A DNA stretch of 64,000 nt from Agarophyton chilense. Taxonomy: Eukaryota; Rhodophyta; Florideophyceae; Gracilariales; Gracilariaceae. Shown here in pieces: positions 23,011-63,967 of the stretch (the first letter of the stretch is position 1; every line of letters starts with the position of its first letter). The stretch is taken from contig JARGXX010000077.1 of assembly GCA_030374765.1 (NCBI GenBank), positions 744,001 through 808,000 on the forward strand, in the 5' to 3' direction. The translations under genes were made by a program, and so were the position numbers. The notes below the pieces were generated by a model. It was not told where the DNA came from. It ran no database searches and saw only the letters and a program-made list of their open reading frames with translations.

Positions 23011-23703
23011 GTCGACGAAGACGGCAAATTCTCGCGCGGGACGGCCCGTTCTGAGCGAAGCGCAACTTGCGCTTCGCAAAGCCACGAACCAAAAGCCACA
23101 AGCCACAAGAGAAGCAGCACGCGTACTACGCGTGGAATGCGTGGTACGCGTGGGATGCGTGGCACAACTCACGGCCGCAACGCACAGCTGGCAAGCGTGG
23201 CAGCGCGCTAAAAAAAAAGTGGCACGCCGATGCGCTGCTTGTGTTGCTTTGTGTTTCGCCACACGCGTTCCATCTCGGCGCGTATCCAATCGCTCCAGCG
23301 GAAGGTGAGCGCGTGCGTGGCACGCACACGACGCGCGTGAACCAAAGACGCGCAGTCGCTCCAAGTCTACGAGGCTGCGAGGCAGAGGCAGAGGCTCGTG
23401 GGTGAGCGTGACGTACGTTCCACCGCGAGCGTTGCGCACCGGTACAGCGAGTGGTGGCGCGCGCAGAGCCGTTGCGTGTGTGCGGTGCGCGTGTCCGATT
23501 CGCACCGCTCTAGCGAACGCCGCGTGCTTGCTTGTTTGCTTTATCATGACGCCTTGCTTTCGGATGTAACGCGCTCGTCGCGCTCCTCCCCTTCGCCTGG
23601 CTCGCGCCTCTGTGCCGCCCTCCCGCAAACCCAAATCATTCATCGTCTCCCTCTCCCTCACCCATTCATTCCCCTCCCCCTCCTCACGACACCCCACCCC
23701 CTC

Positions 23704-26700
23704 ATGGCCGACTCTTGGGGCGTTGACCGCCTGCTCAACCTCACGCGCTCCCTCTCCCGCGCCCTGCAGCCATTCCGCGGCGTGCACGAAGATGCCGCCC
23801 AGCTGCACGCCAGTCTCACCCGCCTCACGCACAGTTTGCATCAAATCACCCGCTCCTACCCCTCCGCCGCCGCCTCCCTGTTGTGGATAGACGACGTGGG
23901 CGCCGCCCTGCAGGCCGCCTACCGCCACCTCGATGCCGACAATCTTTCGCGCTCCCGCAGCCTAAAGCATACCAATCCCGCACCCACCACCCGTCGACGC
24001 AAGCGTCTTTCGCTTGCCAATTTGTTCTCGCCCCCTTCCTCCCACAGCGCTGCGCTTCAAAACCCTGCCTCGCACCCAAACCCGCATCCACCCCCGCCGC
24101 GCCATGCTTCCTCGTCCATGCACAAGTTCCGCCACTCCTTTTCCAGACTGCTCTTCAACCCTGCTCCGAGCGCCACCACCACCATCAGCCCGCTCAAAAT
24201 TGCCGCCCGTCTCGTCGATGAATGGATCATCGCCGTGCGCTCAGCCTCTGAAACCGCCTCTCCCGACGATGTGGACAGCTGGCTTTCGCTAAGTGATGGC
24301 CTACCGCCAATGCCGCAGCAGCACTCCGTCTGTCAGCATCCTGTTTATCATCGTCTTCGCCAGCTCATCACCTCGGCTACCGTCCAGAGCACCGAATACC
24401 AGGGCAAGCCTGTCGCTGCCACTGTCGCCTTGCTTGGCCCCCACGGAGTTGGTAAAACTGCCCTTGCCGTACAACTCGTGCACGACCTCGCCACCACTTT
24501 TGCAGACGGCGTCACATGGATTCAATTGGGCGCAAACGTTTCCGAGGAAGAGCTGCTCGATCAACTAATCCGCTGTGTTGACACTCTCATAGCCGGTGAT
24601 TTTCGTTCATCTGTTCGTTACTGCTCCTCCATCTCAGCCGTACTTGCCCGCGCTTGCCGCTTGCTGTCGAATGTCTCCACTTTGCTAGTCGTTGATGATG
24701 TAGTCGGCGCAAACGCAACACAGGCATTAGAAGCCATTGTTTCCGCGATAGGACCAGCTAGTCTTGTGCTGTATACTACTCCGCATGCCATCGACGACAA
24801 CGACCAGCAACAGTTACTGAACGCGTCCTGCGTGGCTAAAGTCGTTGTGCACCCGTTGCCACCGCGCGCTCCAGAGGCCTCGCTCATGTTCCGTGCTTGG
24901 TTGCCCAAGTCAACGTCCGCCGCTAGCTCCTCCGCTGACTTTGTTCACATCAACGAGCAGGACCAAATCGTCCGAGCTTGCCACGGCCTGCCGCTTGCCC
25001 TATCTATGTCGGCTGGCTTCCTCTCCCGCTTCCCGGCCCATTGGTCCACGCTGGCCGCAGCGGTGTCCTCATCCGAATCTGGCAACGAGACCGTCTTCCG
25101 CGTCTTGGGTCTGCTGCGGGACAAGGGAAAGGAGCGATTTGAACGGCAGCTTCGAGACATTGCATGCCTGCCGGAGGGCGTCTGGATCTCCCTTTCCGCG
25201 TTGGCAGACTTGTGGGGTGTTGATTATCAGTCCATCAAGGAAAGCGCCCGTCGAATGGGGCGCATAGCGTTTGCCGACTATCGTCTTGGTGATACGAGTG
25301 ATGATAGTCGCGTGCGTTTCCATTCTCACGTGCACCACTTTTGTCAGCGGTTGGCGTCAGAAGAAGATGTATTGGCGTCGCATCGCAAGATGCTAGTGAA
25401 CATGCGCGACCGCAGATCACAAACGCTCAAGTCGCGGTTGAAAACGCACTACCTGTCGTGGTGGACAGCGTGTTTCGCAGATTCGTATACAAGTCGACGC
25501 CTTCATTGGCACATGTTCAGGGCACGCCAACTGGATCGGCTGCGGGAGCTCATTTGCGACTATGATTGGCTATGTCAGCGATTAGAACACCACAGTTTAA
25601 TCGGAGTGCTTTCAGAATTTACCACCGCATTGCACGAAGAGGAGGAAAGCGAATCGACGGCGGAGGCAGAGGGAATTGAAGCGATTCTGGAAACCATTCA
25701 AACAGCCGGAAAGCTGCGAAATTCAGACTTATTGGCACCTAGCGCATTTCCGACGTTTTTGGTGAACAACCTTCACGAGTATGAGCAATCGAGTTTGTAC
25801 GTGAAGGATCTCTTAGCATCTACATATGAACAGGCTCGTCGACCGTGGCTCAAACCCATTCCTCCCATCGAGCCTCCGCTGCTGTCGAGCGTCACAGACA
25901 CCGACTCGGATTCATATTCGGAAGAAGAGTCTGATTTATGGTCCGAAACCGACGAAAGCGAACCTCTAGTCCTCGTATCGCACAGTCTTGCGAGCACGTC
26001 GAGCGGGAAAGTGGTATGCGCAGCACGAAATGGAAATATTCAGGTCTATGATCCTGCCACAGGCAAGAATATTATCTCGTGGTCAGGTTCAATTCTCTCG
26101 GATGATGTCAATGATCGATGTCTCGGTGCCATCGAAACTTTCCAAGACTTCATAATTACGGGGCATAAAAATGGAAGATTGTATCTTCGTTCGATTCGAA
26201 ATGGGCAAGTTGAAGTCATTGAAGAGTCCTTGAGAACACAGGACCAGATTTGTGCGCTGGCTACCACTGAAGATGGAGTTGTTGCGGCGGGTACTGATCG
26301 AGGCCTTATTTATGTTCTCAAGCATGTGGATGATTTTGGATGTAAGTCTACACGATATGACTTGGAAGGTCTTTGTTGGTCAATTGCTAGCTTGTATGTA
26401 TTTCCTGATGGTCATAAGGTAGCTGCCAGTAGTTTCAATGGATTCGCTAGTATTTGGACGATTAATGAGCATGGTGAGAACCATAGACGGGTGTCCTTAA
26501 ACGGGCATCTGCCATCCATCGGACACAAAGAGAATTACATTCAAACGTTTGCAAGCATAGGAGGTGGGAAACGGTTGTTATCTTCATGTCGCGCCGGTGT
26601 GGTTAACGCCTGGAATGCAGAAACTGGAGATTGCCTATGGACACAACATTATGGATACCAGTTCAGTCGCAGTTTATCATTGCAAGCATTTGGAATCAGA

Positions 26701-26970
26701 CATTTTGCTTCAGGTCGTAGAGAAGGTGTGAAGGCTATGAGATTGTTGAATGTCGGGTATCCTTACATGATCACTCGTGGTGGAGCTGGTCATGAATTGC
26801 TTATTGTCACGGCAGGCAATTCGCAGAATGTCATGGCGATTGTGACTGGAGACCAGATGATTACTAACTGGTTAGAGCTGTGGCATCCGGGGAACGGTAG
26901 TATATATGTGGCGGTGTGTTATGGGGATGGTCGGTTGATGTCCTATGAGCTCGTGACAGCGCTGAAATGA
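23704..26970 (+). CDS. NB-ARC/WD40 STAND NTPase, APAF1-like architecture
   Basis: A 1088-residue protein with the layout of apoptosome and NLR sensors. Residues about 1-200: helical N-terminal region of unknown class. NB-ARC: P-loop GPHGVGKT at 245, Walker B LLVVDDV near 328, GLPLA near 427, and a winged-helix end with RFHSHVHHF near 538 in the place of the MHD motif. Residues about 585-645 resemble the helical APAF1 C-terminal arm (WWTACFADSY..RRLHWHMF..LICDYDWLCQRL). An acidic linker at about 733-758 precedes WD40-like repeats to the end. In known relatives, ligand binding by the WD40 part triggers nucleotide exchange and oligomerisation. A role in cell-death or immune signalling is inference. 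ATG 23704 follows a pyrimidine-rich leader; the frame is open upstream from 23398. Confidence 0.85.
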   Translation: MADSWGVDRLLNLTRSLSRALQPFRGVHEDAAQLHASLTRLTHSLHQITRSYPSAAASLLWIDDVGAALQAAYRHLDADNLSRSRSLKHTNPAPTTRRRKRLSLANLFSPPSSHSAALQNPASHPNPHPPPPRHASSSMHKFRHSFSRLLFNPAPSATTTISPLKIAARLVDEWIIAVRSASETASPDDVDSWLSLSDGLPPMPQQHSVCQHPVYHRLRQLITSATVQSTEYQGKPVAATVALLGPHGVGKTALAVQLVHDLATTFADGVTWIQLGANVSEEELLDQLIRCVDTLIAGDFRSSVRYCSSISAVLARACRLLSNVSTLLVVDDVVGANATQALEAIVSAIGPASLVLYTTPHAIDDNDQQQLLNASCVAKVVVHPLPPRAPEASLMFRAWLPKSTSAASSSADFVHINEQDQIVRACHGLPLALSMSAGFLSRFPAHWSTLAAAVSSSESGNETVFRVLGLLRDKGKERFERQLRDIACLPEGVWISLSALADLWGVDYQSIKESARRMGRIAFADYRLGDTSDDSRVRFHSHVHHFCQRLASEEDVLASHRKMLVNMRDRRSQTLKSRLKTHYLSWWTACFADSYTSRRLHWHMFRARQLDRLRELICDYDWLCQRLEHHSLIGVLSEFTTALHEEEESESTAEAEGIEAILETIQTAGKLRNSDLLAPSAFPTFLVNNLHEYEQSSLYVKDLLASTYEQARRPWLKPIPPIEPPLLSSVTDTDSDSYSEEESDLWSETDESEPLVLVSHSLASTSSGKVVCAARNGNIQVYDPATGKNIISWSGSILSDDVNDRCLGAIETFQDFIITGHKNGRLYLRSIRNGQVEVIEESLRTQDQICALATTEDGVVAAGTDRGLIYVLKHVDDFGCKSTRYDLEGLCWSIASLYVFPDGHKVAASSFNGFASIWTINEHGENHRRVSLNGHLPSIGHKENYIQTFASIGGGKRLLSSCRAGVVNAWNAETGDCLWTQHYGYQFSRSLSLQAFGIRHFASGRREGVKAMRLLNVGYPYMITRGGAGHELLIVTAGNSQNVMAIVTGDQMITNWLELWHPGNGSIYVAVCYGDGRLMSYELVTALK

Positions 26971-42808: not shown

Positions 42809-45736
42809 TTAAGAGTCCCTTCTCAACGTGAGGTACAGTTTTCTTCCCCCGGGGTGGGCGCCAACTTTCACATAGTGCGTGAGGTGTAATACCCTCTGTT
42901 GTAGGGTGTGCGGCACCACTATCCTCGGGCGAGGTCCATCGGTCCTGATTAGGTAACCCTGATCGTCGTCCTCGAAAGGTAACTGAAATCCTTCGTTGAG
43001 GCGAGCCCGAATCCGTGTACAGAATGGGTCGAGCTGTTGCTCGCGTATCATCTCCGCTGGAGAGATAGGTATAAAAGAGCCGGTCGGCGAATCCAGACTC
43101 TCGTTGACGAGTATATCGTCACAAACATCATCCGTCAGCGGTTGAGCTCCTCCCTCGAGGTCCGATACCATAAAACATGGGATGTCATCGTCCTCGTAGG
43201 GTTCCGTTTCCGCTGTGGTTCCCAAGCGGGATAGTGCATCAGCCTGAGTGTTCAGCTTCCCTTTCTTGTACAGGATCTCAAAGTCGAATTCCGACAGTCG
43301 GAGACGCCAGCGCATAAGGCGGCCCGAGGGTTCGGAGATCTCCAGGAGCCAAAGCAAGCATGCGTGGTCCGTATGGACTTTGAAACGAGTACCCATCAGA
43401 GAGGGGCGAAGTGTAGCTAAGGCCCACACAACGGCTAAACATTCTTTCTCGGAGACCGAGTAGTTCCTTTCATGGACATTCAGGGAACGTGACCAGTACC
43501 CAATAGGGTGACGTTCACCATCCTCAGAGGATTGGAACAGTGCACAACCTACTTGGTTTGCACTAGCATCGGTGTCCACTTCGTAAGGGAGCCCAGGATT
43601 GGGTAGAGCCAAGATTGGCGGTGATGTTACGGCATTCACCAATGCCGTGAAGGCAGACGCTTCCGCGTCGCCAAAAGGTTCCAGTTCAACTGGTTGTCCC
43701 TTCGTCAGGAGCCTGTTGAGGGGGGTGGCAATATCCGCAAAGTTCGGGACGAATCGGCGATACACGTTACACAGACCTAAGAAGGATCGCAACTCCGTTT
43801 GAGTTTTCGGGTGTTTTGCTTCCTTCAAGGATTTCACTCGTACTTCATCGATTGAAAGCTGTCCGGGACGGATGATATGACCCAGATACTTAACCGAATC
43901 GGTGAAAAACTCGCACTTCTTGAGTTTCAAGGTGATTCCCGCGTCGCGGAGTATCTTCATTACGTCCCTGACGTGTTCGAGGTGGTCATCCAGGTTGTTG
44001 GAGAAGACAATAATGTCGTCTAAATACACTAGACACGTCCTCCACTTGAAGGGAGCCAACAGAATGTCTATCGCCCGTTGAAACGTTGCGGGCGCATTTG
44101 TCAACCCAAAAGGCATCCTCCGGAATCGGAAAAGTCCTTGATGACACACGAAAGCCGTTTTGTCTCGATCTTCCTCCCTAATAGGGACTTGCCAGTAGCC
44201 CGAATTGGCGTCGAGGGTAGAGAAAACAGTAGCGCTCCCAAGGGAGTCGATGTATTCGTCCATCCGAGGGATCGGGTACACATCCTTAATGGTTACCTCG
44301 TTCAGGCGTCTGTAATCGATGCAGAAACGCCACGATCCATCCGGTTTCGGAACTAACACCACTGGTGAGGCCCAAGCGGACTGTGCAGGTTCAATTACGC
44401 CCGCTTTAAGCATCTTCTCCACCTGAGATTTCTCCTCTTCCCGAGCTTTCGGTCCAGCCCTGTAAGGGTGTTGGGCAATAGGCCGAGTGTTCGGTAACAA
44501 GTCGATGCGGTGTTCTGTAATCCCAATAGTTCCAAGGGAACCATCCGACATGGGGGTAAATTCACGAAGCATGTGCCTCAGCTTCTCCCTATGAGATGCG
44601 GGTACATGGTTGAGATCCCATTTCTCCAATCCCTGAACAGGATCCGTCTGGTCTGCTCCTGTGATAGGGGCCGTAACCTTCTGAGGTTTAAAGTGTTCAG
44701 CGTGTGGAGCTGCAGTCGTATGCTCACCGTCTTCCGCGATTTCGGCAGTGTCCTCCCCCTCCTTAGGGTCCGCCACACCAAGGACCTCTGCGATAGAGAT
44801 CTTTGTAGGTACGACCGCATGCGGGTGTGGAAGAACAGAACCCAGGATCTGGTGTTTGACCAAATGCTGCGTTGTCTTTCCAAAGTTGGCTACCAAAACC
44901 TTGAAAGGTGTATCCGGTTCCACGGAGACAACCCCATTCGCAAGGGCGAGTTGACGCCGCGTATACAGAGACGGGTTCGGTTGTACCACATGCACACCAA
45001 TTTGCTTGGTAACAACTGTGACCCAAACCGGGGTTTCTGGCGGGATAGCCACTGACTTCGCAACCTTTACCCGTGTAGACACCGGGTCCTTCTTCACAGA
45101 TTTCTGCTCGACAGGGAGAGGAACGCGTGTTCGCGCTGCTCCCTGTAAGGGTTTACGAACAATTGGGATCGTAGACCCGTCTTCGAGTTCCACAGTTCTA
45201 TTCTGAGGACGGATGGCTTCCACGAAGCGGTCGCAAAAGTCACAATCCAGTATGACTGGTGCTGGAAGTGACTTGCATACAATAAACTCTAGCTGAACGA
45301 GATAGGAGCCTAAACTCACCATGAGGGAAATTGTACCCAGTGTCCGTAGCGGGTTGTTGTTCGCATCGGCGATATCCAAACGTGGACCGGTACGAACTTG
45401 GACCCGGAGCAGCGGGGGTAACAATTCAACATGAATTAAGTTAGGAGCGGCTCCTGTATCCAGGACAGATATTTGACGAACCATAAACTGGTTGGACAGG
45501 CCGAAGTCGGCGAATACTTTATAATTCCGCTTGGCCATTACCATAACTCGATCCGGAATACGGAGATTACGGGACCGTACCCACGGGCGACGGAGGACAC
45601 TAAAGTATCCCGAGTTAACGTCGGTGTCAGCCGTTCTCCTTGAAAGGATAGTCACAGCTAGGGAGCGAAGCTGGAGCGCCTCGGGCGTCTTCAACTCCCG
45701 CTTAGAAGACGCCCCTCCCGCAGGGGAGACTCCCAA
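42809..45736 (-). CDS. Element B pol: protease, reverse transcriptase, RNase H
   Basis: The frame is open from about 45832 and has no ATG of its own at the start, so it is expected to be made as a Gag-Pol fusion by -1 frameshifting at the end of gag. Ordered domains: aspartic protease (SVLDTGAAPNLIH), reverse transcriptase (SPVVLVPKPDGSWRFCIDYR; catalytic YLDDIIVFS), RNase H (VDTDASANQVG; HTDHACLLWLL) and the start of the integrase zinc region (HYVKVGAHPGG). Together these copy element RNA into cDNA in cytoplasmic particles. The frame is intact through RNase H and ends at TAA 42809-42811, where integrase would normally continue. The domain order PR-RT-RH-IN assigns it to Ty3/gypsy. Confidence 0.93.
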   Translation of the reverse strand: MGVSPAGGASSKRELKTPEALQLRSLAVTILSRRTADTDVNSGYFSVLRRPWVRSRNLRIPDRVMVMAKRNYKVFADFGLSNQFMVRQISVLDTGAAPNLIHVELLPPLLRVQVRTGPRLDIADANNNPLRTLGTISLMVSLGSYLVQLEFIVCKSLPAPVILDCDFCDRFVEAIRPQNRTVELEDGSTIPIVRKPLQGAARTRVPLPVEQKSVKKDPVSTRVKVAKSVAIPPETPVWVTVVTKQIGVHVVQPNPSLYTRRQLALANGVVSVEPDTPFKVLVANFGKTTQHLVKHQILGSVLPHPHAVVPTKISIAEVLGVADPKEGEDTAEIAEDGEHTTAAPHAEHFKPQKVTAPITGADQTDPVQGLEKWDLNHVPASHREKLRHMLREFTPMSDGSLGTIGITEHRIDLLPNTRPIAQHPYRAGPKAREEEKSQVEKMLKAGVIEPAQSAWASPVVLVPKPDGSWRFCIDYRRLNEVTIKDVYPIPRMDEYIDSLGSATVFSTLDANSGYWQVPIREEDRDKTAFVCHQGLFRFRRMPFGLTNAPATFQRAIDILLAPFKWRTCLVYLDDIIVFSNNLDDHLEHVRDVMKILRDAGITLKLKKCEFFTDSVKYLGHIIRPGQLSIDEVRVKSLKEAKHPKTQTELRSFLGLCNVYRRFVPNFADIATPLNRLLTKGQPVELEPFGDAEASAFTALVNAVTSPPILALPNPGLPYEVDTDASANQVGCALFQSSEDGERHPIGYWSRSLNVHERNYSVSEKECLAVVWALATLRPSLMGTRFKVHTDHACLLWLLEISEPSGRLMRWRLRLSEFDFEILYKKGKLNTQADALSRLGTTAETEPYEDDDIPCFMVSDLEGGAQPLTDDVCDDILVNESLDSPTGSFIPISPAEMIREQQLDPFCTRIRARLNEGFQLPFEDDDQGYLIRTDGPRPRIVVPHTLQQRVLHLTHYVKVGAHPGGRKLYLTLRRDS
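44751..44767 (-). other. Internal copy of the polypurine tract (proximal)
   Basis: The coding strand reads CCTAAGGAGGGGGAGGA within the region between protease and reverse transcriptase. The same 13-nt core occurs next to the 3' LTR and at 41591-41608. Confidence 0.5.
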
Positions 45737-48915: not shown

Positions 48916-50628
48916 CTAGTAGAAACTCTCGCGTATTGTGCTTTCGGTCCCGTCCTGGCCCCGGTGGCCCATCGTGCCACCATGTGACACTATCAGCACT
49001 CGGAGCTGTAGCTCCGCATCATCCTCAGGCACCCAGATGCGACTCCCTTTCTTCCAGAGCCGATTATCCGGATCGAGTGCCAGTCCAGCTTTCGGTGAGC
49101 TTGATCTTTCCTGCGCGTCACGAAGCGAGGATATAATTGGCCATTCTATATCATCAGCAGCTGGCGCCATTTGTGCTGTAGTCTCTAATAGAGAGCAGAT
49201 AGTGCGCATAGGGTGATGCTGCTCAACGCGGTAACCCTTGCACCATCTTGTGAGCATATCTGCGCAGACGTTCTTGTCGCCATCGATGTGCTCAAGTATG
49301 TAGTCAAACCAAGATAGAAATACTGCCCAGCGTTGCACCTTACTCACAATATGGCGGCCGAGTGCCGGCTCGAAAGCGAGCGGGGCAAAGACGAAGAGGA
49401 TATTGCGGTGGTCTGTGTGGACGTGCGCTGGTTGCTCGTTGAAGAAGAGGTAGTCCATTTTGTCGAACACTTGCATAATAGCAAACCCTTCCTTCTCGAA
49501 CATACTCCAATTCCGCTCGGCCTTCTTGAACTCGGCGCCGAGGAAAGCGAGGGGCTCATGGCGTTGCTCCTCGATTGGTAGAGCGAGCTGGTCTAGCTTG
49601 GTCTGTGTCACCACGCCGGACCAGAAATATTCCGACGCATCAGTGTAGACGCATAGAATGTACCCTTCTTTCGGGTATGCCAGCTCAACCGCGTTGCGAA
49701 GATTGTCTTTCAAGGCTCGAAAGGCCTGTTCGTGCTCAGCGCCCCAAGCCAAACTGCGCAACGGCACATCCTTGATAGACCTCTTAGTCCTTCGGCCCTT
49801 TAGCTTATAAGCCCTCTCGAGCACGGCCGTTAGCGGAGCGACAGTGCGCGAAAAGTCTGGTATTGCGTTCTGCATCCAATGGCAACAGTGCACAAATGAG
49901 CACAACTCCCCGGCCGTTATGGGAGAGTGCATGTTTCGGAGCCCCTCCACCTTGGCGGGGTCCATCTTGTACCCTTCACCGCTGACTATTCTGCCACACC
50001 ACTTGATGGAGCGTTCGAGGACTTTGCACTTCTTAGCGGAGAGGTATAGCCCAACCTCCTCGCATATGCCAAAGAAAGTTTCTAATCCATCAAGTAGCTC
50101 TCCCTCCTCCTTGGCATGGAGGAAAAAATCGTCCAACCAAGCCTTAAGCTTACTCCGTAGCTCAGAAAATAAAGGCTCGATCGTGCTCTGGAAGTGAGCC
50201 GTAGCGTTAGTTAGCCCAGGCAGAGTCCTCGTAGAGGTGTAGGTACCCTGCGGGGTTACCACCCCACACTTCTAAAAGCTGTCGGGGTGGAGCGGGAGTT
50301 GCCATTAGCCGCTAACGAAGTCCAACACCGCGAAGCACTTACTTCCAGCAAAGTCATATAGTTCTGACTCGACGTGCAGCATGGGCCAAGCTTGCTTGAC
50401 CGTGGCAGCATTGACCGGCCGGAGGTCGATGGCCATGCGGAACTGCGCCCGCGATCCCAGCTTCGGTATTAGGAGCGGTGCGGCTTGCCATTCGGCATCG
50501 GGGTTTGGAACAAAAAAAGTCCATCTTGACCAACTGGTCCACGTACCGTTTAAGGTACGCCCTCTGCGCAGCGGGATACCGCCGCGCCTTCACCTTGACG
50601 GGCTTTTTCCCTGGCAGGGTTGCAACCC
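48916..50628 (-). pseudogene. Element A reverse transcriptase and RNase H
   Basis: Begins around 50628 in a frame shifted relative to gag-protease; a second frame change is needed near the A7 run at 50512-50518. Two in-frame stops follow, TAA 50305-50307 and TAG 50272-50274, then an open frame of 448 codons with RT catalytic residues WLDDFFLHA, thumb and connection, RNase H motifs VYTDASEYFW and HVHTDHRNILFVF, and the start of the integrase zinc region (SHGGTMGHRGQDG). TAG 48916-48918 occupies the usual Trp after FY, directly beside the element B insertion point. Reverse transcription by this copy is impossible. Confidence 0.87.
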
Positions 50629-52824: not shown

Positions 52825-54660
52825 TCGCGTAGAGAATGGAACGTTGAATTGAACGCTGCAGTGAAAGTGGTCGCACACAAGCAGGTATGCAAAGCAGTCT
52901 CAACAGCCCCGTTATAAGCGGAATAGAGACAGCGTAGCCAAATGAGATGGAAGGCATCAACCGTCAGAGTAAAGTTCTCATACAATATCCTCCTAGCTTT
53001 TGCACGGATTTTGGGTAGAGGCACTATGTAAAGGTGAGATGCATTACACAATATGTTCCCTTCAGAACTTCACTTCGAAAGTCAAAGACATAGATATAGA
53101 GAGAAGGAGACATGTTCAACACCTCTCTCACGAGACGTCTTCTACAACCACCCGATTCTGCATCTCAAAGTGCGAGCGATTGTATCGTGATTTATGTTAT
53201 GCCCCGCGTATCCCACCAAACTCTCAAGCCTATCATTAGAGCACTTAATGTTGGGACGTTCTGTGCGCACCTAATCTGTCTTCCATACACTTGCAGACTT
53301 TTCTTCTTCGTTTTCTCGTCCAACATGATTCTTGAAAGAATTCTCAACAAGCCATTTACGGGTTTGCACAAGCGAGGCGAGCACATCGTGCTTGATGACC
53401 TCCTGCTTTGACTGCCACCTACGTGTTATATGTCATTCGAGACCGGCGGTTTGCAACTGCTGCTCAATGTTGTTTTTCCCACGATATGCGAGCAGGCTTT
53501 TGATTACCATCCGATCACCAAGACATGATAGTTGAAGACTGTAATTCTTGTGGCTCTTGGTACCCTTCCAGAGCAGAAGCAGTAGGCATCCAGTTCGAAG
53601 AACACATGGAAGAGACGGAAAGAGTGGTTCTGAATATCGATGGTGTTGCAACACACACAGACCCTGGGATCGGAACGCAGAGTGGCATAGATGTAGCAGC
53701 AATTCCAGAGAAGTGGTTACCTCTCAGCACATGGGAGGTGACAGAACATCCATTTACAGACCACCATCCCTGTCTCATCACCGTCGACATTGAGAAAAAA
53801 CATACATACAGAGAAAGTGGAAACGCTGTAGTATACAGAAAGCAGATTGGAATAATTTCTCTCTAGCGGAGTAAAAGATAGACTGTATGATAAAGAGTAG
53901 TACAACAAAGAACAAAGATGAACATTATCAACTTTTGTATGAGGCAATTCTATAAACAGCAAGAAAGTCCAATCCGTTTGGAAGACGAAAAAGAGAAGCG
54001 CCATGGTGGAGCCCAGAAGCCTCAAAAGTTGTTGAAATGCGAGCTTTCTAATAGAGGGAATATAGAGAAAATCTCTGCGAAGAAAGCAAAGAAGCGTTAC
54101 AAAGGGCACACAGTATCATGCAAAAATGGTTATCGATAAACTGAAACGAGAGGCATGGAGAGAAATGACAAGCACACTACGACAAATCTACGAAGACGCG
54201 AAACTATGGAGGATCGCGAAGACCACAAACCAAGGCAATCAAGGAAATACGACATTATGTCCCCCGGGAGGTGAACAATTACTGGATAAGAAGCGGGCTA
54301 CGTAGTTTGTGAAATCAGAAATCAGAAAGGTAAGAATTCATGAGAAAGGTACACTGCTACGGAACGGCTACCGAAGAGCGCTTAACGACTATCACAGAAG
54401 ATCAATGAAATCTGTAGTGACCGAAATTATAATAGCACACCCCCACATTTTTTATGTCTCTCGACTTCCTGGGGAGTGTTTCAAATGAGAGGCGGTCGAC
54501 ATCGACAACCAATAAAACAGGTATCAAAAGCTGTGCCATCGTCAGTGTTCTCGGAATGCTAGTTCAGTGGTCAAAAAAGGACGAATTGAAATGACCGAAA
54601 AACCATTGAATTTATCCAAATTTGGAGGTGTTAATTTCCGAAAATATTTTCATTCGTTCA
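52825..54660. other. Intergenic region between the retrotransposon and the DNA transposon
   Basis: About 1.8 kb, AT-rich. The first 50 bp resemble the left flank of element A. Overlapping short open frames on both strands near 53525-53866 have no supporting features. Confidence 0.5.
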
Positions 54661-54735: not shown

Positions 54736-55038
54736 CATGAATCTTTCTGTCGCCGCAGTTTAAAGGTAAAAGTAGAGAAGTGGTGCAGGAGCAGATTCAA
54801 TCTTTGTGCGCTCTAGATTGACAGATTAGTACAAACAACCGGTCCCAAAATGGACCTCAAAATAGAAATTGAACATTTAGTACCATCCATATCAATCGCA
54901 ATAGAATCGCAGCCCGACCTGGCAGACCTCACGTGCCTTGCATTCTATATTATTCTCCACCTGCCCTGTGTGCGCCATACTCTCTCTCCGTCTACGCCCC
55001 CTACCAACTTCTTTCCCACCACCTCTCCTCCACCCACC

Positions 55039-58000
55039 ATGCCTTCCTGCTGCTTCAACGGTTGCTCCTTCTTCGCCCGAGAAATCCCCGCCCTCCAGCG
55101 GCACCAGAGAAGGTGGCCTCATCGCCTCTCCGCCAACAAGCGCTTTTTCTCCCCTGGCGGAAATGAACCCAACTTCCCCCCCCGCACAAAACGCCACAAG
55201 TCCACCTCACAACTCCCCCCTCATCCTCCTCCCTCACATCGCCCTTCCGACAACGTCCTTCTCGCACACCATGACTCCTACCTCCAAGACCAGCTCTCTC
55301 TCTCCCTCCACACCCAGGACGCCATCCACGTCGCCACTGCCCCTCTCGGTTCCCCCTCCTCTCTCGCTCTCTCCCCCGTCCCTCCTTCCACTCCCCCCCT
55401 CGACAACCCCCACCTGGAGAAAATGGTCCTCTACATCTCCTCCATCGCCTCCAAGCTTGGACAACGAAAGGCTGACGAACTCCTCACTCTCCTTAATGAT
55501 CCCCACTTCTCCGAATCAACATTCCAGAACTCAGTCTCCTCCGCAAAGCAATTCCTCGAGCTCCAGGCAGACCTCTTCCACCAGAGAATCAGGTCCATTG
55601 GTTTCGCCCCCTCCACCATCTTCGATCCCCACAAACGCTTCTCCGCAACACTCTTCCAGAAAGACGCAATCCATGTCCTCAAACAACAGCTCGCCCTCGC
55701 ACACTTCAAGAACACCTTTTCCACCCCATCTCTCAAACATCCGCCTCCGGCTCCCCCGCCTTCGCACACCCCATGGCAGCCACCCTCGGCTCAAAAGTCG
55801 TCCCCGCACTCAAGACCGCCATCATGCATTCCACAAAAGATAACATCGTCTGGCATCTCCCTCACTCCACCGGTAACGACTCCTTCATCGGCCTCGTCCA
55901 AATCTACTCCGACAAGTCCTCTACCTCTCTCAAATCTTCTTCCATCACCTCCTACCCCCTCGGCATCACCCTTCTCAACTTCTCCGACTCCTTTCGCCGC
56001 AAATGCATCTCCGACAATCTCACACTCCTCGGCTATCTTGCCACCCCCTTCACCCCAATCACTCCTTCTCCAGATGCAGGTATCATCACTCATTCCTCCT
56101 CCATCCCCCGCCAAACAAAAATGGAACTCATACAGCAGACCATCTCCTCCCTCCTTCAACCTCTCTTCTCTTCCGCCCTCCCCGGTTTCCCCTTCCGCGA
56201 CGCAGACGGCGTTCTTCGTCAATGCCACCCCATCATCGCCAGCTACTGCGCAGACATTCCCGAGGCAAAAGATATTCTCGCCATCTCCCACGGCACCCGC
56301 CCCCAGCACCCCTGCCACAGATGCTCTGTCCCTCGCTCACAACTCCACCAACACTTTCACGCCCATCCCCCTCGATCTCTTCCCCTCACCCTTGCAGCCC
56401 GCAACAAACACTTCTCCCTCCTCAAGGACTCCGAAGCAGCTCTCCTCGCCCGCAAGCCAAGAGTCTCGCGGAACTTCTAGGAACAAGCTCTCCAAGCACT
56501 CCACTCCCTCTCCCTCGCAAATTACCCCTCCCTCTTCGAGTCTTACCCCCTTTTCAACTTCACCCCCCTCCTCACCCCATACAACATCTTCCCGTTCGAA
56601 CCACTCCACAACTTCCACCTCGGCGTTTCCAAACTCATCAAGCTCGCCGCCATCGAACGTCTCAGATCCGAACACCTCTTCACCACCATCAGCTCCACAA
56701 ACTCCCGCCGTTCCTTCCACTCCGTCCGCACCTCCATCCTCAAGCACTCCAACTTCATCCTCACCGCCATCGAAATCATTCCCCAGCTACCGGCCTCCAC
56801 ATCGACTTCTCTACTTCCGAAAGCGGGCAGTCCCTCAACGGCTTCTTCACAACTGACGGCGTCCGCGGCATGCTAGAAGCAAAAGACTACCGCGCCCTCG
56901 ACATGGTCTTCCCCTTCATCGGCGCCTTCTTCGACGGCTGCTGTGACGAAGCCAATTCCGCTCCCATCACAACCGTCTTCTCCAAGTACACAGACCTCCT
57001 CCTCACCTCCATGTGCTACAACTCCGTCCCCGAATGGACCACTTCTCGTCTTGCCAAACTCGCCTCCCAAATCCATTCCTTCAAGCACAGAGCTGTCGAT
57101 GTTCTCGGTCCATACCATACCTCCAACCTTGGCACCCTCAAATTCCACCTCCTCGATCACATCGTAGACGACATTTGACGCTTTGGGGGTCTCCACTTCA
57201 ACGATGCAGGCATCTTCGAAAAAGCCCATACTTTCTTCAAAGCACGTTACACCCGAACCTCCAAGCGCAGACCCACCGCGCACAACGAAACCATCCGTGC
57301 CATCGAACGCTCCGATGCCGTCCACAATTGGATTTCTCTCTCCGCTGATCCTTCCGTCACCTCATCCTCCCATGCCCCTCCTCCTCCCTTCCAAGCCCGC
57401 AAACCAGGTTTCGTCCGTGATGGCAAGCACACCTCCTTTTCCGATCTCATCACCGCTCACAAATTCCTTCGAGCAAACCCCCACTCAACAATCTCTTCCC
57501 TTCAGGACCTCTTCTCCCCAGACACTATCGCCATCATCTCACAGATTGGAACCCTCGCACTCCCCTCCTTCGTCACACTCACACTCGAAACACTAGCTCT
57601 CAACCAGGACTCCCCCACTCTCCGCCAAACCCGTCTCACATTCGTCAATTCCGCATACGTCGTCGGCGGCTTCACCCCAACCCTACACGACTACATCGCC
57701 GATCGAAACGAGCTCGCCGTCAAAGATCCCCCTCTCCCACTCATTCAACGTATCTTCGCTGCTCCCTCCTTCGGTCCCTCTAAAACCCCAAAGTTCTCCC
57801 ACATCCTCGTTGCCGGTTCCAGCTTCTCCAACCCCACTCCCACCGCCTGGGTCTGCAAGCTCAACTCTCTTCTTCGCTTCACCACCCCTTCTTCCCCTTC
57901 CACTCATAACGAGTTCGCCTTCGTTCAGTTCCTCGAACTCGTTCCACCCCAGGATCAAGTCGATGTCTCTCTCAATTGCATCTGCCTCCGATGGGCAACA

Positions 58001-58300
58001 GACGACGAACAAAACCACACCGCCCACCCCCTTCCTATCTCAAACACTTCCAACTCCGACAACGTCTCCCCCTGGTTCGGCCTCGTACCATCCTCTTCCA
58101 TTCTCGGCCCCGTTCATGTACTTCGCCAAAACTACCCCGCACCCCCCTTCACCCCTCGATTGCACTGGCGCGTCCATCGATTTTACCTCAACAGATTCTA
58201 CCGAGACCCAACTGCAAAGCCCTACTTCTCCAACACCACAACTGGTGGCACAACACCACCACTGGGTGGCACCCATAATAATACCTCCCAAGGCACATGA
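55039..58300 (+). pseudogene. Plavaka-like DNA transposase, disrupted
   Basis: Starts at ATG 55039 after a pyrimidine-rich leader with a C2H2-like finger (CCFNGCSFFAREIPALQRH). The coding sense then moves through three frames: a frame change near 55735, TAG 56478-56480, another frame change near 56770, and TGA 57176-57178 before the final stop at 58298-58300. Recognisable blocks in order: IASYCADIPEAKDI, a CHRC pair (PCHRCSVPRS), YNIFPFEPLHNFHLGVSKLIK and LKFHLLDHIVDDI. These match the general pattern of Plavaka-type cut-and-paste transposases known mainly from fungi. Catalytic acids were not pinned down. This copy cannot make full-length enzyme, though sequence errors could account for the frame changes. 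Confidence 0.7.
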
Positions 58301-58387: not shown

Positions 58388-61021
58388 TCACTCTCCCACT
58401 CCTTGTCTACTCCCCAACGCTAAGCGCTTGATCCGTGGTTCTTCTGGTCCACATGACGCTATATAGCAATCTGACACCGCTCCAAGTCTTCTCGTGAGAT
58501 TCTCCATGAAAAACTCCTCCCTTATCGCCAGATAGATTTTCTCTCTCGACGATATCCATAGCCCAACCGTCGCGATTCTCTCCTTATTCCCACTCACATC
58601 TCTACGATTCCCTCCACAGAATCCATCATTCTCAAACTCCTCAGCATACTCATCCTTCACCATGTTCCAGGGAACCCTCAATATGTCCTCAACAGCCAGT
58701 GGCAGAAACCTCCCAAACAGCGTCGAGAACAAAAGTTGCCTTTGGCCTCCCCGCCCAACGTCTCTATCCATCGTGGTCACCACACATCCAATCCATGCAT
58801 CAAGTCGCGCAAGATGCATCACCGTCCCATCCACATACTGCCTTTCTCCATTTCTGTGACTCTCTACCGCGTAGCCCATAAACTCCTCCAACACTTTCAA
58901 CGACACCTGATTTCGAAAATACATATCTGCCTCACCAAAGTCCCCCAAGTTCTCAGACACCTTCGATCCAGAATAAGTAATATCTTCAATCGCACTCGTT
59001 CTCCACGCACACAGCTTACCTCTCCCATCCTCCTTCGACCCCATCAACTTCTCCTGCGCCTCCTCAATCTGCTTCTTCAACTGCGCCCAAAGCTCCGTCT
59101 CTTCAGTCACCTTAGCTCGTTTCGCCATCAAATCATATCCAAGCATGGAAAACAGCTTATCACGCGCTGCTCGCTTCCGCACCCCAACCACATCGCTCAA
59201 TGTCTGCTTCATCCTCTGTCTCAAGCACCTATCCACACTTACATTTTCCAAGCACTTCTCTCTCCTCCCCGCCTCCCTTATCGACTCCCATTTCTCTCCC
59301 ATTAACTCAGTCTCTACCACGTGCTTCAACAACAAATGGCTCCCGCCCTCTGTCGACGGCGTATACGGTCTCATCTCATATGCAACCTCAATTGGACATC
59401 TCGGAACCATTTCCTTCTCTCCCACCACAAACATACTTTTCTCCCTACTCTCCCCAACCGCCTCACTTCTATTCTTCCAGCTTCGACCCACATTCTCGTT
59501 GTCGAAGCAAAGTTCCGATGCCTCCAGTTTTGCATAATGAAGAATCCTATCATACACACGACGTGCAAATCCATAAAAGCATTCCTGCACTCCAATGTCA
59601 TACTTTCGTCGCCGCGTCACGCCTCCCTCCCCCCTCCCTTCCCCAGCGATTCTACCTTTCAACGCCTCCCTCACACTCTCAATCAGCACATTCTGCTGCT
59701 TCATTTCCTCCCTCGCCCGATCCAGCTCTGTTTGGGTCATTTTCAAACTCACCATCACACTGTAGCTGTCTTCCTTCATACGTCCCATTTGTCCCTTCAA
59801 CACATTCATCTTCTCAATTAGCATCGACTGCGGCAACAAACCTATGTCATCACCATTTGCTTCATCTTCCACTATACGGACGGCGTTCTCCACGACATTT
59901 AAATTCGCATTCTCCCCGTTATCATTATTCCTTGTGAATACAATGGTTCTCCTTACTCGCATACCTTCCGGCGTCCTTCGCCTTGCGTTCACCTCAAACC
60001 CTTCAACTCCTAAACCCACCCCTCTCCTCGGTGGCAAACGCTCGACATCTTCTCCCTGATGAGAAAGAACTGCTGCTCTTCCATCGCCTCCCTCTCCTGA
60101 ACCACGTGTTCTCCCTCCAGCAAACCCCCTTCTCCCCCCCTCACTCACATGCACTTCTCTGCTTTCCCTTTCGTCTATCGCTCTTCTTCCTGTAACTCGA
60201 ACACTCCCCATTCTTTCCCTTGCACGCTCTCTCCTTTCTTCCACGTATTCCAAGTTCGCCCCCTCCCATCTTTCCGCCTGTTCCCCCGCGGTAACTCCAA
60301 CACTCTCTCCTTCTGTTCTCTCTCGAACGACTCTTGCGCCCGCGATTAGACCACTACTGGGTCCACCTATTCTACCTTCCCCACCACGGCTACTCTCTAT
60401 TCTCCCTTTCTGTATCTCATCATCACCGTCCTCTTCCCTCATACCCGTAAACGATGCCCCTGCTTCTTCAACGCCTCTGAGGCGGGATCCACGTTCTCCG
60501 ATCATTCTCTCTCCCTCCTTACGCCCCTTCGTCCTCTCATTCGGAATCTCTTCACCTCCTTCAGGTGCAGAGCATGGATTTACCGGCTCCACATCAGCTG
60601 AAGACGTGAGTACAGCACTTAGAGTCCGCTCGGATGCATCCCCTCTCCTTGTCCTCCCTGGAGCTCTGCTCGCCCTCCCCCGCAATCCACTTCTAGGTAC
60701 ACGCGTGCGGTTGCTTCGCACGCCATCCCGTTTTCCATCGCCGCTCCGCACCATCTCTCCCGTAGGCGACGTGATTTGCTCCACACTCTCCTCCATCACC
60801 GTCTCCTTTGCGCGAACTGCCCTTCCTTTGCCCCCACTCGCCTCTCCTTCCCCACCATCTTGCCTTGATCTGCCTCTCAGGCGCACGCCTCCCTTCTCTC
60901 CACTCGGGCCCTGGAGCCTACGCCCCTTGTCTCTTCCGCCCTCCGCATCCCCTCCATGCCGCCGTGATTTTGTACCGCGCCCGCTAGTGTTCTCGCTTCT
61001 CGATTGGCGCTTCGGAGCCAT
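58388..61021 (-). CDS. Large unknown protein convergent with the transposase
   Basis: An intact 877-residue ORF of no recognised family. The first 430 residues are low-complexity, rich in Arg, Gly, Glu and Ser, starting MAPKRQSRS and probably nuclear and nucleic-acid binding. A coiled coil at about 435-500 (LIEKMNVLKGQMGRMKED) follows. The C-terminal 370 residues look globular, with blocks such as ECFYGFARRVYDRILHYAK, WAQLKKQIEEAQEKL and YVDGTVMHLARLDAW. ATG 61021 is preceded by CTCTCTCTCTCTTC; the frame is open to 61126. It ends 87 bp from the transposase stop. Position and tail-to-tail arrangement suggest an accessory protein of the transposon (as TnpA is in CACTA elements), but this is inference. 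Confidence 0.65.
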   Translation of the reverse strand: MAPKRQSRSENTSGRGTKSRRHGGDAEGGRDKGRRLQGPSGEKGGVRLRGRSRQDGGEGEASGGKGRAVRAKETVMEESVEQITSPTGEMVRSGDGKRDGVRSNRTRVPRSGLRGRASRAPGRTRRGDASERTLSAVLTSSADVEPVNPCSAPEGGEEIPNERTKGRKEGERMIGERGSRLRGVEEAGASFTGMREEDGDDEIQKGRIESSRGGEGRIGGPSSGLIAGARVVRERTEGESVGVTAGEQAERWEGANLEYVEERRERARERMGSVRVTGRRAIDERESREVHVSEGGRRGFAGGRTRGSGEGGDGRAAVLSHQGEDVERLPPRRGVGLGVEGFEVNARRRTPEGMRVRRTIVFTRNNDNGENANLNVVENAVRIVEDEANGDDIGLLPQSMLIEKMNVLKGQMGRMKEDSYSVMVSLKMTQTELDRAREEMKQQNVLIESVREALKGRIAGEGRGEGGVTRRRKYDIGVQECFYGFARRVYDRILHYAKLEASELCFDNENVGRSWKNRSEAVGESREKSMFVVGEKEMVPRCPIEVAYEMRPYTPSTEGGSHLLLKHVVETELMGEKWESIREAGRREKCLENVSVDRCLRQRMKQTLSDVVGVRKRAARDKLFSMLGYDLMAKRAKVTEETELWAQLKKQIEEAQEKLMGSKEDGRGKLCAWRTSAIEDITYSGSKVSENLGDFGEADMYFRNQVSLKVLEEFMGYAVESHRNGERQYVDGTVMHLARLDAWIGCVVTTMDRDVGRGGQRQLLFSTLFGRFLPLAVEDILRVPWNMVKDEYAEEFENDGFCGGNRRDVSGNKERIATVGLWISSREKIYLAIREEFFMENLTRRLGAVSDCYIASCGPEEPRIKRLALGSRQGVGE

Positions 61022-61188
61022 GGTTGAAGAGAGAGAGAGCGATCGTGGTATGGTCTTCCACGCGTTGCAATGCGATGGATGGGAGAGAAGCTTCGAAACA
61101 TTCTGCTTCCAAAAATATACCTCCACCCTTTTCGTGTTCTCAGAAAACCCCCAAACTTTTCAGATATTTTAAATATGCGCTCGAACGC

Positions 61189-61345: not shown

Positions 61346-63967
61346 TTAATCGATTACTATGACTGGCGTGTTATTCATACTCCAGATATACTCTGTCCCA
61401 TAATCCGCGAACAGCTCCTCTCCTATTTCTATATCTCGAATTGCTTGCACAGAAAGCAATCTATAGTCTCTCAACTGAAATGGGGTCCGCCCCGTCCCCG
61501 GAGTTCTGATGACCCGAACATTTGCAGTTCGGCGTCTCATTAACCCTTCTTCAACCGCATCCCTGTCCCTATCCCCTTCCACATACTTGGGGTCGTTAAT
61601 TGTTCCCCCCAAGCAAAATGGAGCAGGGACAATCCACACCGGAATAAGAGACACCCCACTAATTCTTCCTGGTAGCTTGTGAAACACTTCCCCTCGGACG
61701 CTTATCTCCATCGCTTACTGCCGAAAACGATCAGCAGTCGCTTTCAATAGCCCCCCTCCGTATGCCTTATGAACTTCCTTCCACTTTGAAAGATTATGGT
61801 ACACCAAAGTCCCATAAAAGTAACAAACAGTCTCACCTTGTATCACCCGGCGTGTTGTGTACACACCAACTCCAGCATTCGGGTGCCTTATCGTCGACTT
61901 TGCAATCCGACAACCACATACTGTCGCCTCCACTGCCAGAATAGCATTCCAATCCAACAGTGACATCTTTCCTTGAAAACTTTTTGGCCACTCATACAGC
62001 GCCTGCCGTCGCCCAATCTCCGATATATTCTTATCCTGCCACATGGAGGAGAGAAAATCCACGATATGGGGTGGAAACATCTGATGCTCGGGAAATCCGG
62101 TAGGTGTTTTCCAGGACTTCGAACGCTTTATGACGACGTCCGGAAACAAGCATGTCACTCGAGTAACAGCGTTCCGAACATCTTGCGTTATATGAATGTC
62201 CGTCTCGTTGTTCCGCATGCATGACGCAAATTTCACTGTAGCGGCGTGCTTCGCATGAGCAAAGCACTGCGGATCTGGCTCACACCCTAGAAACTGACGG
62301 TGCTTTTCCAGTTCCATGCATGCCATGGCCGTTGAAAATGTTCGGGCGAAGAGGTCCACCACTATGTCTCCCGGCTGAGAAAACCTGCTGATGAGCTCCT
62401 TCAGAAAAGCGCGTGACTTCTGTTCCGCCCGCACTTTCTGATACGTAACTGCTCCTTTGGCATTCTTCCTTCTCCATAGAAGTGTTTCACCATTAGACAT
62501 GGGAGGCACTTGGTCAATCACGCTATGGTAACCCGGATATCGCGATGGTACATAGCTGAAGTTCTCATAGTTCACCATGCCATGTTGTTCGGCGTAGGAC
62601 AACCCGCTGCGAACTCCATGAATGGCGTACTCTGTTCCGGGAAACAGGGAGCACGAACTACGTCCGGGATTACGCATCGGATTGCCTTCAGAGCGAATGA
62701 AGTGCAACTGGACCTTGTCCACGACAAACGACCTGCTCTTCTGTCCATTCTCATCCTTTGCAGCAATTCGACCCAACACTTCTTTCCATTCGTTCACCTG
62801 CTCAACCGCGCAGAATATAACGAAATGCCCTCCCGGACGCAGAAGTTTAGAGATGAGCTTCGCCGTCTTCACCATGTCTTGCCGGTTCAGAACGTCGTAC
62901 CAGCTGTTTTTCCTGTTCTTCTTCGCACGTATATTATACGGCGGGTCCGTGAGAACTAACTGCACTTTCCCTATCGGAGAGACCCCATTGCTGCGCAATG
63001 TCTCGTCAATCTCCACCAGGTTCTCGAAAGTACAATTGTACATTCGACAGTGCTTATCCATCTCCGACTCGCACTTTTGGAGAGACATTATATCATCCAG
63101 AGAGGTAAGGTCGTGAGGCGGCAGAATGTCCACCGACTCAGATTCGACCGACCTTGGTCCAGCTGTGGAAGAATGCTGACCAACACCCATGTTCTCTTCC
63201 TCATTCCCGGTCCCACCCTCCACTCCCTCTCCACCCTCCACCGCCGGAGCCTCCGAATCTTTCTCAGGGGGTACAACTTCTATCTCGTCTTCTTCCATAA
63301 CCATAGTAGGTTCCGCCTTTGTCGCAGCCACCACTTCCACCTCCACACTCCCTCGCAGCTTTAGTGGCGATATGTATTCCGAGATGGTAGAGATAAGAGA
63401 GTTTGAGAAGCAGTCGAATCTCTCCGCAAACACTCTGGGCAAATTGTATGTAAACGGTTTTAGAACGTCCCATCTTTCCGGAGCTGATATAGAGTAAAGC
63501 TGCTCATTCACCACCACTTTGTGCAGGTCAGCGAGAAACTCTTTGGCCAACATACGAAGTGGAGTGTCAACGTACTCCGGCAGGTTTTACGCCCATGGGA
63601 TGACATCCTCCTCCAATAAAGTACGGTTTCTACCAGGAAGGAGTCGTTGGGCCATGTCCTTGTGAGAGAACCCATCCCTTCTGTTTCCGATTGCCTGGAA
63701 CTGCATATCAGAATATCGTAGATGGATAAAGGGCAAAACCATGAATTCCACGCCAGGGAATCCCAAATACTGGGCGAAGCTGTCCCACGCGTTATTGACG
63801 AGCTGCACACCAAAACCCACACGCTGAGCTACTGGTTTGTCATAAATCGTCACCTTCGAAAATGGCGTATCGTAGGTTCTGTCCCGCTTTCTTCGCTTAC
63901 GGGAGACTCTTCTCTTCTCCATAGAGACCGACTGAATACAAATGAAGAACAGCAACCTCTGGAACAT
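61346..63967 (-). pseudogene. DPPY-type DNA methyltransferase fused to a SET domain
   Basis: A single reading frame of about 870 codons with in-frame TAA at 63587-63589 and 61715-61717. A basic stretch (KRRVSRKRRKRDR) at the start suggests nuclear entry. The central part is an amino-methyltransferase of DNA: motif IV LVLTDPPYNIR (nt 62933-62947), then LLRPGGHFVIFCAVEQ, a target-recognition-like region, and motif I DIVVDLFARTFSTAM (about nt 62320-62380). This is the IV-before-I (beta) order of N6-adenine and N4-cytosine enzymes. The C-terminal part is SET-like: AGVGVYTTRRVIQGE, then GGTINDPKY and GEELFADYGTEY, as in histone lysine methyltransferases. The second TAA falls inside the SET domain. 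Motif I lacks the usual glycines, so activity is uncertain. The 5' end may lie beyond the window. Confidence 0.78.

Follow-up and report, generated by a model that had tools for sequence, protein, structure and literature searches.

A Plavaka DNA transposon of the red alga Agarophyton chilense appears to carry a DNA amino-methyltransferase fused to a SET domain

Coupling DNA methylation to histone methylation usually takes several proteins, each able to recognise the marks of the others. Enzymes of the beta class with a DPPY motif add methyl groups to the exocyclic amino groups of DNA bases, DPPY usually denoting adenine, and SET enzymes methylate lysines. In the red alga Agarophyton chilense, both kinds of domain are joined in one gene, here called MTase-SET (MTase, methyltransferase), which lies in a 64,000-nucleotide stretch of DNA (contig JARGXX010000077.1, positions 744,001 to 808,000; hereafter the window) inside what appears to be a Plavaka DNA transposon. 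Retrotransposons with captured C5-cytosine methyltransferases and no SET domain were reportedly described by de Mendoza in 2018; they would share with this locus a transposon that carries a DNA methyltransferase, and would differ from it in the C5-cytosine enzyme, the retrotransposon vehicle and the lack of SET.

Epigenetic cargo in DNA transposons is already a known kind. TET/JBP genes occur in Plavaka and other transposons, including fungal Plavaka elements (Kojima 2025, PMC12730594). According to that paper, PlavakaA has a 2-bp target duplication and termini TGT..ACA, and PlavakaB has a duplication of 2-3 bp and termini CATCA..TGATG. The algal element has in common with the fungal TET/JBP elements the Plavaka transposase, terminal repeats, the 2-bp target duplication and a cargo for epigenetic marks. 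It differs in that this cargo is a writer (amino-MTase plus SET) and is not recognised as a 5-methylcytosine oxidase, in its ends (CGTCW versus CATCA or TGT), and in its host, a red alga versus a fungus. The same text names HarbingerS and MuDR of Phytophthora, which are likewise DNA transposons bearing a SET histone methyltransferase gene; they belong to other transposase superfamilies, and the text at hand mentions no DNA methyltransferase fused to SET. The giant Plavaka repeats of Amoebidium (PMC11244446) reach up to 50 kb with cargo including tyrosine recombinases, and the accessible part of that report mentions no MTase-SET. Bdelloid N4CMT (PMC8885841; structures 8s9m, 8s9n and 8s9o) has a chromodomain reader, is described as silencing and works with a separate histone writer, SETDB1, whereas the writers here are fused. 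Transposons with SET, TET/JBP or DNA methyltransferases singly are already known; a DNA amino-MTase/SET fusion, a Plavaka vehicle for it and a chromosome-end sister were not found among the papers listed in searches of the open-access PubMed Central (PMC) literature (in some of them the best 12-15 of 20-78), which mostly excludes subscription journals and Repbase reports.

The MTase-SET gene occupies window positions 61346-63967 on the minus strand, with a beta-order DPPY amino-methyltransferase first and a SET domain at the C-terminus. An earlier sequence-only reading had given these coordinates, this strand and these domains correctly: Pfam places N6_N4_Mtase on window 61718-63553(-) at 5.8e-16, and both domains pass in an intact copy on contig C117. 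It had also described a single reading frame with both domains; the fusion is indeed open in intact copies, but the window frame has in-frame stops at 63587-63589 and 61715-61717. The window holds codons 171-1043 and the stop codon, the first 170 codons lying upstream (159 of them past the window end). Mapped from the intact copy, the N6_N4_Mtase domain (amino acids 505-742) spans 62252-62965(-), with DPPY at 62936-62947, and the SET domain (amino acids 869-1027) spans 61397-61873(-), where the stop at 61715-61717 breaks it; the 3' piece of the window alone reaches 18.3 bits for SET, under the cut-off of 22.4. Codon 62342-62344 encodes Arg, and the equivalent Gly712 is invariant in 62 of 62 aligned proteins. 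With two stops and a Gly-to-Arg change at an invariant MTase position, the window copy is dead.

The C117 copy has an uninterrupted frame of 1043 codons. Pfam assigns N6_N4_Mtase to amino acids 505-742 (3.4e-18, 66.9 bits) and SET (PF00856) to amino acids 869-1027 (23.4 bits against the cut-off of 22.4). Membership of the beta class of amino-methyltransferases follows from PF01555 over its cut-off, DPPY ahead of the FxG cofactor motif and a matching fold. Among relatives, the SET score is 28.5 bits in P0002, 26.2 in a sister family, 25.3 in P0065 and, below the cut-off, 20.5 in P0001. A family profile of 62 sequences compared with solved structures matches histone-lysine methyltransferases, with KMT2C best (3.7e-5) and with KMT5A and EZH2 also found, EZH2 less well than KMT2C. 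In the structure comparison, the best 50 rows of each search were all taken by the MTase domain, which left none for SET.

The SET part is detectable in 81 of 88 homologues and not in the other 7. Separate genes for the two domains, which the sequence-only reading had named as refuting evidence, are thus not what the homologues show, and the MTase-SET fusion is a deep family. Organisms named among the homologues are Chondrus, Pyropia and Gracilaria. The classical SET motif combines Asn-His for the cofactor with a catalytic Tyr; across 62 aligned rows the catalytic positions are nearly invariant, with the cofactor Asn in 57 and the catalytic Tyr in 55. The intact protein gave no Pfam match to a chromodomain at E<=1, and no other reader domain was found in it. 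P0083 and P0084 of Pyropia yezoensis are related DPPY methyltransferases with no detectable SET part, and may represent a pre-fusion state, a post-loss state or incomplete gene models. Viral contigs also hold relatives (at least 80, kept out of 108), all aligning solely to query residues 449-776 at 20-48% identity. An endogenous virus or Polinton was rejected on this restricted match and on a Pfam scan of the seven element frames of the C117 copy, which found no viral structural or replication families.

The genome searched comprises 79.8 Mb in 135 contigs, to which the C-numbers refer. With the window frame as query it yields at least 40 copies of this MTase-SET (family 1) at 97-100% identity (40 of 70 candidates scored). 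The frame is free of stops and gaps in 7 of 12 whole-frame comparisons (C117, C105, C92, C70, C2, C12a and C12b). Damaged copies include C98 and C116 with one stop each, both arms of C77 with two stops in common, and C13 with a one-base insertion; the C10 copy is open over the 2510 of 3132 bases compared and is given a 1043-codon open frame in another listing. C68:3360039, a candidate divergent family, was ruled out as such by its sequence, which is that of a family-1 copy with an in-frame deletion. C105 and C117 are 1 base apart in the MTase frame and 39 bases apart in the companion frame described below; this uneven divergence suggests recombination or conversion between copies.

These copies sit in a larger repeated element, which is 18.8 kb long in C117. 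Comparison of ten loci with their flanks puts the outer ends about 400 bases past the Plavaka frame on one side and about 9 kb upstream of MTase-SET on the other, both formed by the inverted repeat CGTCWGTGTTCTCGGAATGCTAG. Both ends were read in 8 copies, and in all 8 the 2 bp immediately outside them are identical, which for any one copy has a chance probability of about 1 in 16: TA in C117, C98 and C10, TG in C105 and C116, AA in C13 and C12a, and TT in C92. C12b and C77, with one end read in each, are omitted from this count. One terminus reads CGTCT (CCTCT in C13) and the opposite one CGTCA, a pair that resembles the published PlavakaB ends without being identical to them. Genome-wide, the terminal repeat occurs 152 + 141 times at up to one mismatch, and the reversed control 0 times. 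Among 30 repeat pairs picked from the matches listed, 7 are spaced 18.0-18.9 kb apart, one 39.7 kb and 22 between 3.0 and 17.0 kb. The Plavaka domain (PF18759) scores 3.5e-21 on window 55773-56477 and 1.3e-22 in the C117 copy; genome-wide, all 123 candidates scored, out of 235, pass the cut-off, and its 0 matches in 14 control genomes mean that there is no positive control. No match was found to the KDZ transposase family PF18758, and none in any control genome, so that this search is uninformative. Taken together, the locus reads as a Plavaka DNA transposon, cut-and-paste in type and recently mobile.

The gene order is an inward-pointing Plavaka transposase (1126 codons in C117), a low-complexity frame, MTase-SET, a palindrome array, a divergent companion gene of 1228 amino acids, and small uncharacterised frames. 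A convergent Plavaka match lies 2.5-5.1 kb downstream in 35 of the 40 listed MTase copies. Of the 123 Plavaka matches, 35 are these neighbours and the remaining 88 have no listed MTase copy next to them. The sequence-only reading had noted a Plavaka-like transposase close to MTase-SET; the transposase is confirmed, and "close" understates its position, which is inside the same repeated element. The co-occurrence and shared terminal repeats that it had proposed to look for are both found, and the 35/40 linkage with the 8/8 shared termini and duplications supports its suggestion of a DNA transposon carrying both writers, here in one polypeptide; the self-marking system that it envisaged is putative.

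In the window, the outer end beside the transposase is the terminal inverted repeat CGTCAGTGTTCTCGGAATGCTAG at 54540-54562(+), matched by 0 of 100 shuffles, and the element fills the window from there to 64000. The transposase gene at 54958-58297(+) is frameshifted and was recovered as three tblastn pieces covering amino acids 13-1126 of the C117 frame. A low-complexity open frame of 912 codons lies inside the element at 58388-61126(-), has no Pfam family over cut-off and is only 385 codons long in C117. The C77 copy, which is the one in the window, extends past it as a head-to-head inverted duplication of the same element half; the stretches examined did not contain the remaining half. Since both arms carry the same two stops, the duplication would be later than the decay, or else an assembly artefact.

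Between the divergent MTase-SET and companion genes of C117 (L012:2299-3155) is an array of about 860 bases, in which near-perfect palindromes, each about 80 bases long, are bounded by TGTCGGCCGACA. The companion is found divergent at 1.1-2.5 kb from a listed MTase copy in 19 of 25 matches, and the other 6 have no partner among the 40 listed. As a whole-protein query it gave no homologue among 7991 candidates scored, and its C-terminal region gave 8. In the resulting alignment, H1041 and D1043 are present in 9 of 9 sequences and a later H and R in 8 of 8 (P0090 ends sooner), an HxD...H...R pattern that we take to resemble a 2-oxoglutarate oxygenase. That reading has no Pfam or PDB profile match and remains a lead; TET/JBP dioxygenase likewise gave no Pfam match at E<=1 in the seven C117 element frames or in the 8 companion homologues. 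A ParB-like identity, raised by a DGxHR motif seen by eye, was rejected: PF02195 has 0 matches in the genome at E<=1, although 11 of 14 control genomes match, Pfam finds no ParB in the companion or its homologues, and among 9 family members a ParB PHROG came up for a single one, at 0.036. A similar stretch that by eye seemed fused to MTase-SET in P0065 fell away too, with Pfam finding only the MTase and SET domains there. Near the element's far end, a 274-codon frame (L012:8811-9635(-)) shows weak resemblance to the ketopantoate reductase C-terminal domain (E 0.038, below the cut-off, with no PDB match).

A second family, recovered with a Chondrus protein query, adds 24 MTase-SET copies with long open frames (46 of 202 candidates scored). 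Its member L121 is about 35% identical to family 1, and both Pfam domains pass in it. With contig ends standing in for chromosome ends (a telomere-like repeat is present in 1 of 6 ends read, the start of C95, of CCCCTAAAA type), 19 of the 21 copies on contigs longer than 100 kb lie within 50 kb of a contig end, and all 21 are transcribed inward. The other 3 of the 24, on contigs shorter than 100 kb, were excluded and by nearest end point outward. For comparison, 6 of 22 family-1 copies with known contig size lie within 50 kb of an end. Family 2 is probably subtelomeric; counting against a purely subtelomeric distribution are partial copies outside the 21, namely C4:1098457, hundreds of kb from both contig ends, C10:52092-56591, C80:2066539 and others on contigs of undefined size. 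In a DNA search, 27 of 40 scored family-2 matches are full or near-full at 97-100% identity, and the rest are shorter or more diverged. Nine of the 27, query included, have the top score over 3001 bases, and they sit on eight contigs; this points either to very recent spread or to strong homogenisation.

A companion homologue of about 1316 amino acids is divergent from the family-2 MTase-SET at 2.4-8.1 kb in 10 of 14 family-2 companion matches. Of the remaining four, those on C68 and C9 face, by eye, copies from the DNA search, the one on C31 is convergent, and the one on C63 has no listed partner. A listed Plavaka match lies within 20 kb of only 1 of the 24 family-2 copies (112 of 235 Plavaka candidates being unscored), and no palindrome array at family-2 loci is among the genome matches listed. 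The MTase-SET/companion pair is thus not confined to the transposon. A quick tree joins family 1 to P0001 and family 2 to P0002, each pair with support 100, which implies that the two lineages parted before those relatives split off. Identical assembly statistics suggest, short of proof, that P0002 and the companion homologue P0089 are linked.

We favour, at a probability of roughly 45%, an autonomous Plavaka element with a two-gene divergent cargo, whose dual writer marks the element's own chromatin against silencing, with the sister family acting likewise at chromosome ends. The MTase would write N6-methyladenine (6mA), as its DPPY type suggests, and the SET domain would act on a nearby lysine of a histone or of some other chromatin protein, a single protein thereby leaving two marks on the DNA that it binds. 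The most likely target would be the transposon's own chromatin, perhaps via the palindrome array, which would keep the element transcribable; the contig-end family may perform the same service for genes in otherwise silent chromosome-end chromatin. The preference for an anti-silencing role has three grounds: transcription benefits a transposon, KMT2C is the closest match of the SET profile, and 6mA goes together with permissive chromatin in other eukaryotes (PMC12695648).

Several points weigh against this picture. In 51 of 62 rows the SET Asn is followed by Asp, where the classical motif has His. The ratio of nonsynonymous to synonymous substitution rates (dN/dS) relative to the C117 copy is 0.74 for MTase-SET, 0.59 for the companion and 0.58 for the transposase, so that copies mostly drift after insertion; selection between copies is weak, and these values are no proof of function. 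Five of the 40 listed MTase copies have no listed downstream Plavaka match. Derivatives without the two-gene module are also repeated in the genome, so the module is not needed in cis; the two that were read (C21 and C31) retain the termini at either side, the array and a portion of the transposase but neither cargo gene, and with common breakpoints they count as one event. The 6mA work of PMC12695648 concerns MT-A70 enzymes, a different methyltransferase family, and bdelloid N4CMT, which among eukaryotic systems is the closest parallel, has a silencing role (PMC8885841).

More broadly, but doubtfully, the divergent pair could be a portable chromatin-marking module, possibly a writer and an eraser, serving both as Plavaka cargo that marks itself and as a chromosome-end element of fixed orientation that builds telomere-near chromatin. 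If so, it would be the first mobile dual DNA/histone writer known to us and a new kind of subtelomeric element. The MTase-SET gene may mark chromatin for both mobile DNA and chromosome ends. With both writer domains fused in one transposon-borne gene of a deep family that is repeated near contig ends, the locus lends itself to testing whether a selfish element sets its own chromatin state, what beta-class DNA amino-methylation does in eukaryotes, and how epigenetic tools pass between transposons and chromosome ends.

The main rival to anti-silencing is silencing. Here the enzyme would mark both the transposon and chromosome ends for repression, limiting host damage or stabilising telomere-near chromatin, like the bdelloid loop of N4CMT and SETDB1. 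We consider this unlikely, since the best solved SET match is KMT2C, with the repressive EZH2 matching less well, since Pfam finds no chromodomain or other reader domain, and since a transposon would seem to gain little by it.

Protection or targeting, in which the methylated element is recognised or spared by its own transposase or companion and SET acts on a non-histone partner, would suit a module that an autonomous element houses along with a long palindrome array separating the two genes, an array retained in both derivatives read. It is nonetheless improbable: no precedent for Plavaka was found in the literature, as far as the sources available extend, the module-less derivatives are repeated too (although enzymes could come in trans), and the shared breakpoints of C21 and C31 reduce their retained arrays to a single event. 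That the pair is a mere passenger, a host or chromosome-end gene pair captured by Plavaka and hitch-hiking with no function for the transposon, would fit the near-neutral drift between copies and a possible source in the 35%-identical sister family near contig ends, but is improbable given the fusion retained in 81 of 88 homologues with catalytic positions nearly invariant in 62 rows, tree pairs that place the lineage split before P0001 and P0002, and three large genes open in the C117 copy.

Elsewhere in the window, retroelements lie beside the transposon, with reverse transcriptase and RNase H at 42812-45736(-) and 48919-50262(-). Among host genes, 23398-26967(+) encodes NB-ARC (2.4e-13) with weaker WD40-type matches, an architecture like that of immune receptors.
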